From the NCBI GenBank assembly GCA_947471035.1, contig CANIWJ010000035.1:1-33384 (forward strand): DNA of 33,384 nucleotides, in the 5' to 3' direction. Positions 16,801-18,767 of the stretch are shown here, piece after piece. The position numbers were made by a program, and so were the translations under genes. Each line of letters starts with the position of its first letter. Within the stretch, counting starts at the first letter, position 1. This DNA is from Verrucomicrobiota bacterium. Lineage in GTDB: Bacteria > Verrucomicrobiota > Verrucomicrobiia > Opitutales > Opitutaceae. The notes below the pieces were generated by a model. The model had not been told where the DNA came from and did no database searches. It saw only the letters and a list, made by a program, of their open reading frames with translations.

Positions 16801-17763
16801 ATGTCCGCCGAACCCGCCATCCAAGTCCGCAATCTCGTAAAAACCTACTCGGGCCACCCTGCGGTGCGCGGCGTCAGCTTCGACGTAGCCAAAGGCGAAA
16901 TCATCGGCCTGCTCGGCCCAAACGGCGCGGGTAAATCCACGACACTGCGCATTCTTACTGGTTACCTGCCCGCCACCTCGGGTCAGGTGACGGTCTGCGG
17001 CGTGGATGTCGCCACCCGGCCCGAAGACGTTAAAAAGCTCCTCGGCTACATGCCGGAAAACAACCCCCTGCCGGACGATCTCCGCGTGCACGAATACCTG
17101 CACCTGCGCGGACGACTCAAAGGCCTTACCCGGCGCAAACTCGCTCCCCGCCTCGACGAGGTCGTTCACCTTTGCGACTTGGGCCGCGTGCGCGACCGCA
17201 TCATTGGAAAACTCTCCAAGGGCTACCGCCAGCGCGTCGGCATCGCCGACGCCATTCTGGCCGAGCCGCCGGTCATCATCATGGACGAGCCCACCATCGG
17301 CCTGGACCCGCACCAGATCCTCGCGGTGCGCGACCTCATCGCCGGCCTGCGCGGCCGCATGACCGTGCTCATCAGCTCGCACATCCTTCCCGAGATCGAA
17401 ATGACCTGTGACCGGGTCATAATCATCAACCAAGGCCGCGTTGTCGCCGCCGGCGCCCCCGACGCGCTACGCCGGGAGCTCTTCGGCCCGGGCTACTACG
17501 AACTCGAAATCGCCGGTCCACTCGACGTGTTACCTGCATTGCTTTCGCCGGTAGACCCCACGCTGGCGTTTGCCGACACCCGCCTGGCCGGGGAAGGTTT
17601 TCACCTCGTGCGCCTAGCCGCCGACCACGGCGCGCCCGACCTGCGCGAAGCCCTCGCCAGCGCCTTGGCCCGCGACCCCCGTTTCCGCCTTCGCGGCCTC
17701 ACTCGCACCCGGCACACACTGGAAGAAGTCTTCCTCGCCGCCACCAGCGCGAAGGCCGCCTGA
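16801..17763 (+). CDS. ABC transporter ATP-binding protein (GldA-like)
   Basis: The protein has 320 residues. Walker A is GPNGAGKST (39-47), the Q-loop region is LGYMPENNPLPDDLRV, the signature is LSKGYRQRVGIADAIL near 138, Walker B is VIIMDEPTIGLDP near 158-170 and the switch His is in SSHILPEIE. After about residue 225 an extra domain of about 90 residues (YYELEIAGPLDVLPALL) matches the C-terminal extension of ABC-2-type export ATPases. The motif set is of the GldA or NatA type. The permease that normally follows is missing. The next feature downstream is the valine-rich leader and terminator. The partner must be encoded elsewhere. Confidence 0.92.
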   Translation: MSAEPAIQVRNLVKTYSGHPAVRGVSFDVAKGEIIGLLGPNGAGKSTTLRILTGYLPATSGQVTVCGVDVATRPEDVKKLLGYMPENNPLPDDLRVHEYLHLRGRLKGLTRRKLAPRLDEVVHLCDLGRVRDRIIGKLSKGYRQRVGIADAILAEPPVIIMDEPTIGLDPHQILAVRDLIAGLRGRMTVLISSHILPEIEMTCDRVIIINQGRVVAAGAPDALRRELFGPGYYELEIAGPLDVLPALLSPVDPTLAFADTRLAGEGFHLVRLAADHGAPDLREALASALARDPRFRLRGLTRTRHTLEEVFLAATSAKAA

Positions 17764-17824
17764 GCCGCCCCCTCCCGACTTGACGCCAGATAAAACATCA
17801 GCACCACTAGCCGCTCTTCTTACC

Positions 17825-17929
17825 GTGCTCAACGCTTCCTCCCATTCCTCCGCTTACGCCTTCGCCCACGTGGTATCCGTGGTCGTAGACGTATACGTGT
17901 CCGCTACGGGCACACCGCGAGGACGCTAA
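17825..17929 (+). CDS. Putative valine-rich leader peptide
   Basis: A frame of 34 codons from a GTG at 17825 to the TAA at 17927-17929, possibly starting at an in-frame TTG at 17780 (49 codons). The sequence contains AYAFAHVVSVVVDVYVSATG: seven of ten consecutive codons (residues 16-25) are valine. Such a cluster is typical of leader peptides that control branched-chain amino-acid genes, for example ivbL of E. coli. A strong terminator starts 20 nt after the stop. No Shine-Dalgarno is visible, which is common in this window. The peptide has no other recognisable feature, and coding status rests on the layout. Confidence 0.5.
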   Translation: MLNASSHSSAYAFAHVVSVVVDVYVSATGTPRGR

Positions 17930-17979
17930 GAAAGCAACCCACTTTCCGCCCCCTCCGGTTCCAACCGGAGGGGGTTTTT
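17897..17979 (+). terminator. Candidate attenuator: pause hairpin, antiterminator and terminator
   Basis: The terminator is a 12-bp stem (17949-17960 with 17963-17974) running into TTTTT (17975-17979). Upstream, ACCG-C-GAGG at 17914-17922 can pair with CCTCCGGT at 17952-17959 in the terminator's 5' arm, with one bulged C, giving an antiterminator. A small hairpin (17897-17903 with 17907-17913, loop CTA) covers the last valine codons. A ribosome stalled at the valine codons would leave the antiterminator free, while one at the stop codon (17927) would cover it. The terminator is certain. The switch is inferred. A second short hairpin (18005-18009 with 18016-18020) follows. Confidence 0.65.
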
Positions 17980-18054
17980 GTTTTTAGGACAACAACTCGC
18001 AGCCTCCGGAAAAAGCCGGAAGGGGTGGCCAAACCAAAACAACCGCCACCGCAT

Positions 18055-18312
18055 ATGAAAACGCTCGAACTCCCGCCCATCGCCTCGGCCCTCGGCCGTC
18101 TGCGTCAAAATCGTCCCGCGCCCCGCGCCTGGCCCTTCGCGCCGCTTGCCAGCGCGCCAACGCCTGCAACCGCGCCCGAGCCCAGGAACGACTTTTTGAT
18201 CACCACCCTCGCCCCCGGCTTGCTCAAAACCACCACACCGGACGTGTTGCCCGCCATGCCCGAAATCCCCGGTGCGGAGGCCGCCCGCACCACCTACTGG
18301 TTCGACCTTTGA
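18055..18312 (+). CDS. Unrecognised 85-residue Pro/Ala-rich protein
   Basis: I do not recognise this protein. The ATG at 18055 gives 85 residues, and an upstream ATG at 18025 adds ten. Visible features are a Pro/Ala-rich middle (APRAWPFAPLASAPTPATAPEP), then NDFLITTLAPGLLKTTTPDVLPAMPEIPG and the end TTYWFDL. It has no signal peptide, membrane segment or cysteine. Third codon positions are mostly G or C, as in neighbouring genes, which supports coding. It lies behind the valine-rich leader and terminator and would be the gene controlled by it. It is convergent with vapC, 29 bp apart. Coding status is moderately supported. Confidence 0.5.
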   Translation: MKTLELPPIASALGRLRQNRPAPRAWPFAPLASAPTPATAPEPRNDFLITTLAPGLLKTTTPDVLPAMPEIPGAEAARTTYWFDL

Positions 18313-18341: not shown

Positions 18342-18767
18342 CTATCCCTCCAGCTCCGGATGGTAACTACCTCCGTAGCCGGGACGGTAGAGCACCGCCC
18401 CGCCCAATCCGGCCAGCGTGGCGAAATGGGCGTCCTTCGCGTAAATCCGCCAACCGCGCGCCGCCGCCGTGGCCGAGATCAGAAAATCGTTCCAGGGCAG
18501 CGTATGCCCCGCATCCCGCGCCCGCCAGGCTAGCGCCTTGGCCGCATCCCATTCCGCTTCGCGACACTCCGCATACGGGATAACCCCGAAAAACAGATCC
18601 AGGGCCCGCCGCTCTTCGCGTCGCGCGCCGCCCAGCACTTCCAATTTCACCGGCGAACACCACGCCGCCTCATACTCATCCAACAAGGCGCGCAGGGCGA
18701 CCTTGCTCGCAAGGTCGCCCTGCCGCCGCGCCGCCTCTATCCAAATCGAGGAATCCACCAATACCAT
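18342..18767 (-). CDS. vapC: VapC-type PIN-domain toxin
   Basis: The protein has 141 residues. It is a PIN-fold ribonuclease of a type II toxin-antitoxin pair. The acidic metal-binding residues are present: Asp5 (VLVDSSIWIEA), Glu43 (PVKLEVLGGAR), Asp94 (LPWNDFLISATA) and Asp112 (YAKDAHF). Members cut tRNA or rRNA; the target here is unknown. It follows the antitoxin gene by 14 bp on the same strand and was probably co-transcribed with it. It appears complete and active. Confidence 0.9.
   Translation of the reverse strand: MVLVDSSIWIEAARRQGDLASKVALRALLDEYEAAWCSPVKLEVLGGARREERRALDLFFGVIPYAECREAEWDAAKALAWRARDAGHTLPWNDFLISATAAARGWRIYAKDAHFATLAGLGGAVLYRPGYGGSYHPELEG

Follow-up and report, generated by a model that had tools for sequence, protein, structure and literature searches.

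A putative valine attenuator of apparent ilvB descent precedes a small protein gene under purifying selection in Opitutaceae

Introduction

Why should a valine-rich leader peptide and a transcription terminator, arranged in the manner of an ilv attenuator, stand in front of a gene that is not an ilv gene? The question is raised by a stretch of 33,384 nucleotides from a Verrucomicrobiota bacterium of the family Opitutaceae (GenBank assembly GCA_947471035.1, contig CANIWJ010000035.1), hereafter the window. A preliminary description, made from the sequence alone, proposed an ilv-type attenuator at this locus and offered two accounts of it: either the protein encoded downstream has a role in branched-chain amino acid metabolism or sensing, or the attenuator has been separated from its operon. 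These alternatives are not mutually exclusive. The gene that follows in the window encodes an 85-residue protein, and not the pathway gene by which an amino acid attenuator is recognised. According to the part of PMC2965389 available to us, regular leader-peptide systems were known only from Proteobacteria and Actinobacteria before a Firmicutes case in 2010. Among the matches listed by our literature search, which covered few subscription papers, none described an attenuator with a valine leader in Verrucomicrobiota.

Results

The leader peptide ORF lies on the forward strand at 17825-17929 and comprises 34 codons (MLNASSHSSAYAFAHVVSVVVDVYVSATGTPRGR-stop), with a GTG start at 17825 and a TAA stop at 17927-17929. 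All seven of the valine codons that had been reported in a run of ten were located in 17870-17899 (at 17870, 17873, 17879, 17882, 17885, 17891, and 17897). A TTGACG hexamer at 17780-17785 (forward strand), 45 nt before the GTG, is a candidate -35 promoter element; no clear -10 element was identified. Past the leader stop lies an intrinsic terminator (17948-17985, forward strand), consisting of a 12-bp stem at 17948-17975 with nine G-C pairs and a 4-nt loop, followed by a T-run. Its fold has a free energy of -26.1 kcal/mol (z -5.5). Stem and T-run were as first described, and the distance needed correction: the terminator begins 18 nt past the stop, not twenty.

Between the valine codons and the antiterminator stands a 7-bp hairpin, GTGTCCG/CGGGCAC, at 17897-17913 (forward strand). 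The antiterminator itself spans 17914-17959 on the same strand and has the leader stop codon inside it. In its outer helix ACCG (17914-17917) pairs with CGGT (17956-17959) and GAGG (17919-17922) with CCTC (17952-17955), leaving C17918 bulged. The originally proposed pairing of 17914-17922 with 17952-17959 is therefore exact, and it is extended further by inner pairs, GC/GC (17925-17926 with 17948-17949) and GAAAG/CTTTC (17930-17934 with 17942-17946). The fold from 17914 to the terminator loop reaches -15.4 kcal/mol (z -3.0), which was equalled by 1 of 200 shuffles. When a ribosome was modelled in the middle of the valine codons, the 5' arm of the terminator paired upstream with a probability of 0.82, compared with 0.50 in controls with the upstream sequence shuffled, and only 1 of 60 shuffles was as high. 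With the modelled ribosome on the stop codon the probability dropped to 0.04, in agreement with the suggestion that a terminating ribosome would cover the antiterminator.

Rfam gave no match in the window region at the gathering threshold. At E≤5 there were 10 matches in the window, the best of which was PyrG_leader (25.4 bits against a cut-off of 65), and a family named ilvB-OMG was absent among them. A further conserved block, CCTCCGG...CCGG.AGGGGTGG, occupies 18003-18029 (forward strand) between the terminator and the small ORF. It echoes the terminator arms and is partly recognisable before ilvB in genome G024; ribosome entry and a further RNA switch are possibilities only for its role.

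The search of relatives that the preliminary description had proposed found the leader and terminator together with homologs of the small protein in 14 of the 15 genomes of the genus. The DNA block was matched in 13 of the 14 other genus genomes in a DNA search, the small-protein profile in 14 of 15, and the RNA covariance model, with strong hits (E<1e-22), again in those 14; the single genome without the unit is 77% complete. Upstream neighbours vary among the sister genomes while the block stays, and the block is therefore a unit of its own. In the window the upstream gene (16801-17763, forward strand) encodes an ABC-transporter ATPase, with no permease gene seen after it. The ATPase gene is also found upstream of the attenuator in G004, and eight sister genomes carry another conserved gene there. 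On the other side, a PIN-domain (VapC-like) protein, PF01850, is encoded at 18342-18767 on the reverse strand, convergent with the small ORF, and DNA that looks similar by eye is present after the small ORF in G001, G003, G004, and G007. The VapC-like gene was ruled out as the regulated gene because it lies on the opposite strand.

The leaders of the genus (14 sequences) share an HVVSVVV core (HIVSVVV in G014) and, immediately 5' of the stop, the residues PR[GER]; the leader of sister genome G001 starts with ATG, not GTG. Across the 14 sequences the helices of the hairpin and the antiterminator keep 95.7% of their pairs, a value as high as in no shuffle of 500. Three pairs were changed on both sides, a number reached by 25 of 500 shuffles. 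In the 7-bp hairpin, two of the seven pairs changed on both sides, for example with G-C replaced by A-U in three sequences. Covariation in the outer helix of the antiterminator says little because this helix is nearly invariant.

A covariance model built from 23 loci was searched against 150 Opitutaceae genomes and, at E≤0.1, matched 113 of them from 41 of 49 genera, weak matches including bare terminators. We read the downstream gene at 100 loci. These were 88 of the 92 matches with E<1e-7 (G136, G118, and G127, at contig ends, and G097 were left out), eight genus genomes found by DNA search, one weaker match (G157), and three loci found by looking upstream of ilvB (G022, G039, and G027), which bias the count to ilvB by three. 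The weaker matches G150 and G024b were dropped after inspection as not being leaders. Acetolactate synthase (ilvB) followed at 32 loci and a small ORF of 60-111 residues at 66; the remaining two were ilvN alone and an MFS transporter. Small ORFs after the element occurred in 22 of the 37 genera examined, ilvB in 20, and both in six, and three genomes (G063, G068, and G155) contained both locus types. At the transporter locus (L180, G019:C1:5679947-5680051) a valine leader and an ACCGGAG/CTCCGGT antiterminator precede the gene, which was named by eye and might move branched-chain amino acids. At the ilvN locus (L188, G018:C1:2408026-2408130) the attenuator stands directly 5' of an ilvN-like gene without ilvB, a possible intermediate arrangement.

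Leader and terminator were both located at 98 of these loci (the terminator finder missed G068a and G019b), and loci within one genus are related, so that the 98 are not independent cases. The gap between leader stop and terminator was 14-31 nt in all of them and 14-21 nt in 91. TTGAC was present upstream of the leader in 91 of 98, against 9% of shuffled upstream sequences. Its distance to the leader start, taken as the first in-frame ATG, or else GTG, at least 25 nt on, was nearly constant (36-50 nt in 87 of the 91; median 41 nt), and a Shine-Dalgarno-like sequence preceded the start in 1 of 91. Given this spacing and the scarcity of Shine-Dalgarno-like sequences, the leader mRNAs are probably nearly leaderless in Opitutaceae. 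The title of a cited Corynebacterium paper likewise states a missing ribosome binding site. Between residues -24 and -5 valine made up 34-39% of the relatives' leaders. Leaders before ilvB (30 measured) had 39% valine and 16% leucine, and those before small ORFs (65 measured) 34% valine, 20% serine, and only 3.5% leucine. This valine- and serine-rich, leucine-poor composition hints that leaders of the small-ORF type sense valine more specifically than those of the ilvB type.

The valine codons and the antiterminator pairing, whose loss in relatives had been named as evidence against an attenuator, were conserved. In 81 of the 98 loci, no more than 3 of 60 shuffles attained the predicted antiterminator probability. 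Of the 17 loci that failed this test, four belong to the genus (G005, G006, G011, and G014), nine precede ilvB, and one is the ilvN locus. Class medians of the antiterminator probability over the 98 loci fell to 0.00-0.02 once the ribosome was placed at the stop. The antiterminator folded in all 15 loci chosen for printing, despite differing sequences. Swapping the upstream sequences between the two commoner terminator-arm classes barely lowered predicted pairing (0.84 own vs. 0.81 crossed; 0.90 own vs. 0.83 crossed), and the case for compensatory change is thus weak for the contrast between these two classes.

In genomes G023 and G024 it is acetolactate synthase that follows this leader and terminator. 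A TIGR00118 search of 48 genomes suggested two IlvB types, distinguished by length, score, and leader rather than by a tree. The first occurs in most genomes; the second occurs in twelve, with a valine leader upstream in 12 of 12. Among the 15 genus genomes, of which some are incomplete, a second IlvB over the cut-off was absent; IlvN was present in 11 of the 15, at most once in each. Attenuation of the other ilvB gene (type A) was considered and rejected, the ORF filter giving no valine leader in 12 of 23 type-A loci read, with only a short upstream sequence for the type-A locus of G007. An order-wide search matched 24 of 132 genomes at E≤0.001, seven of the 24 being members of Opitutaceae. 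Seven matches from other families were read: the three strongest were valine leaders before ilvB, in two families, and none of the four weaker ones (E near 1e-5) was a leader. Since the element precedes ilvB in about a third of the loci read (32/100) and in two other families of the order, the window element looks like an ilv-type attenuator by descent, and ilvB looks like its ancestral target. In a tree of the 98 leaders, made from few columns and with direction unset, the small-ORF label changed 8 times compared with 27.5 in shuffles, and the starred branches force at least three changes.

The attenuated gene occupies 18055-18312 (forward strand) and encodes an 85-residue, Pro/Ala-rich protein with a YWFDL C-terminus. 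It is as unrecognised as first stated: neither Pfam nor NCBIfam, small-subunit models included, matched it, and we ruled it out as IlvN or a member of another known family on this ground. Among members of the small-ORF group, 0 of 20 matched Pfam and 0 of 2 scanned matched NCBIfam. The window ORF belongs to this group by its length (60-111 residues), its position directly after the attenuator, and an [HN]D[FL]L motif, here NDFL at residues 45-48. The motif occurs in all 13 complete small ORFs of the genus (that of G014 is cut by a contig end). Outside the genus, [HNE]D[FLMVW][LFV] is found in 50 of 52 small ORFs and in 18 of 799 control ORFs of similar size from the same loci; the 50 were themselves chosen by the motif, and the two others (G068a and G159), one residue off, were added by hand.

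Within the genus the median dN/dS was 0.41 in frame compared with 1.29 and 1.64 in the other frames. All 73 usable pairs (of 78) had in-frame values below 1; in the other two frames 12 and 1 of the 78 pairs did. For four further genera the medians were 0.28-0.48 in frame and 0.98-2.29 out of frame. Deriving the codon alignment from the protein sequences gives the true frame some advantage. With in-frame dN/dS low and the other frames above 1, the 85-residue ORF is, by its coding signal, a real gene under purifying selection, and the small-ORF group is fast-evolving. AlphaFold2 gave a mean pLDDT of 61 and a pTM of 0.14. The protein is probably disordered; the low confidence fits disorder but could also stem from a shallow alignment (13 rows). 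In named genomes the small protein has relatives in Opitutaceae and other Verrucomicrobiota, including Verrucomicrobia bacterium IMCC26134 and three records titled Akkermansia.

Profile HMMs were made from the attenuated IlvN and IlvB. For the IlvN C-terminus, 15 of 65 small ORFs scored above the threshold passed by 1% of motif-preserving shuffles, their resemblance being to the extreme C-terminus (HDVLxVRxRPDL); for the IlvB N-terminus, 10 of 65 exceeded the same threshold. The small ORFs of G044, G094, and G111 match the IlvB N-terminus and the IlvN C-terminus, in that order. A profile-profile comparison matched the small ORFs to the IlvB N-terminus with a probability of 1% and to the IlvN C-terminus with one of 42%. 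The window ORF (-1.7 bits with IlvN and -1.0 bits with IlvB) showed no resemblance, nor did the 13 genus ORFs as a group carry an IlvN or IlvB signal. Since part of the group resembles the N-terminus of IlvB and the C-terminus of IlvN, the data suggest an in-frame internal deletion of ilvBN, of which the group would be a relic kept for another use. For the window ORF, which lacks such a signal, membership in this relic group is argued from position, size, and the NDFL motif.

Discussion

We estimate the probability at about 85% that the window carries a valyl-tRNA-sensing, ribosome-mediated transcription attenuator, derived from ilvBN, that now drives a small protein under selection. The support for the attenuator is about as strong as sequence alone allows. 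The transcript would start a few bases 5' of the leader GTG, as the TTGAC spacing implies. When valine is ample, the ribosome should reach the stop at 17927 and mask the 5' arm of the antiterminator together with the GAAAG arm; the 17948-17975 hairpin would then form and transcription would terminate. When valyl-tRNA is short, we infer that the ribosome stalls in the valine codons, which would allow the antiterminator (17914-17959) to form and RNA polymerase to continue into 18055-18312. The element would have come from an ilvBN operon attenuator, with ilvBN lost from the site in the genus of the window.

Could the terminator simply belong to the upstream ABC gene, with a valine-rich frame by chance? 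A terminator placed after 16801-17763 would by itself look identical. Yet the upstream gene varies among sister genomes while the block is constant, and the valine leader, the spacing, and the antiterminator recur in relatives (98 loci measured); we consider this explanation most improbable and reject it in view of the conserved block amid differing neighbours. As for the proposal that the attenuator was separated from its operon, ilvB is gone and the descent looks ilvB-like, yet the target ORF is under purifying selection. The stronger form of this proposal, in which deletion of ilvBN left the small ORF as a functionless, decaying remnant, draws on the lack of an ilv gene downstream in the window, the resemblance of some relatives' small ORFs to both ends of ilvB-ilvN, and the low-confidence structure prediction. 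A decaying leftover would hardly show median in-frame dN/dS of 0.28-0.48 in five genera (control frames 0.98-2.29), be retained together with its attenuator in 14 of 15 genus genomes, or occur in 22 genera, which makes this very unlikely.

Another reading gives the small ORF a purely cis role: it would couple translation to a downstream enzyme and be vestigial where the enzyme was lost, as in the window. A fold-type-I PLP aminotransferase does follow 11 of the 66 small ORFs, and in all five loci printed (L116, L115, L194, L131, and L196) a candidate aminotransferase start overlaps the small-ORF stop by 4 nt (ATGA/GTGA), suggesting translational coupling at these five. The aminotransferase is absent, however, at the other 55 loci (median downstream DNA 2525 bases; below 600 in G003 and G014), the best aminotransferase matches elsewhere in genomes of the genus are only 33-37% identical, and the coding constraint remains in genera where no aminotransferase follows. 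We regard a purely cis role as unlikely. To return to the attenuator driving a selected small protein, a tentative guess at function is that starvation induces a peptide which binds to the acetolactate synthase still present, or to another branched-chain enzyme. A more specific version is rather unlikely: the ilvBN deletion would have left an in-frame mini-gene fusing the N-terminus of IlvB with the C-terminus of IlvN, and this, retained under the valine attenuator in many Opitutaceae genera, would have become a starvation-induced, disordered microprotein working in trans, for example by associating with the acetolactate synthase subunits that remain and altering their feedback inhibition.

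The described ilvB and ilvBNC attenuators (E. coli ilvB, Corynebacterium ilvBNC, and the ilvB-II motif; PMC10272879) resemble the window in their short uORF with branched-chain codons, terminator, and antiterminator, and actinobacterial ilvB leaders (PMC1262725) likewise have a short uORF rich in such codons, as far as the available parts of both papers tell. As in these, ilvB still lies downstream in part of the Opitutaceae group. In contrast to them, the window element drives a small protein and lacks an Rfam match, the leaders of small ORFs are valine- and serine-rich and leucine-poor, and a Shine-Dalgarno-like sequence precedes 1 of 91 leader starts. The ilvB-OMG motif has been proposed as a uORF attenuator for ilvB in several phyla, and its uORFs are described, in the part of PMC10272879 available, as rich in branched-chain amino acid and threonine codons; it is by this description, not by alignment, that we set it apart. 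Some small ORFs resemble the end of the IlvN/IlvH small subunit, but at 60-111 residues, without a Pfam or NCBIfam match in the members scanned, and with no resemblance in the window copy, they differ from it. Trans-acting leader peptides of the peTrpL type (PMC7298713, from the part available) are alike in tying a small peptide gene to an attenuator; there the leader peptide itself acts, whereas in Opitutaceae a second, separate ORF lies past the terminator.

The valine attenuator can be traced through much of Opitutaceae, with ilvB as its target in some genera and a small protein in others. What surprises is the target: in 22 of the 37 genera examined, a small protein that is under selection and probably disordered takes the place of ilvB. 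The covariance model directs attention to small genes possibly overlooked in annotation. With the Opitutaceae loci as a natural series, one can ask how an operon turns into a microprotein gene and what a cell starved of valine gains by making the product.
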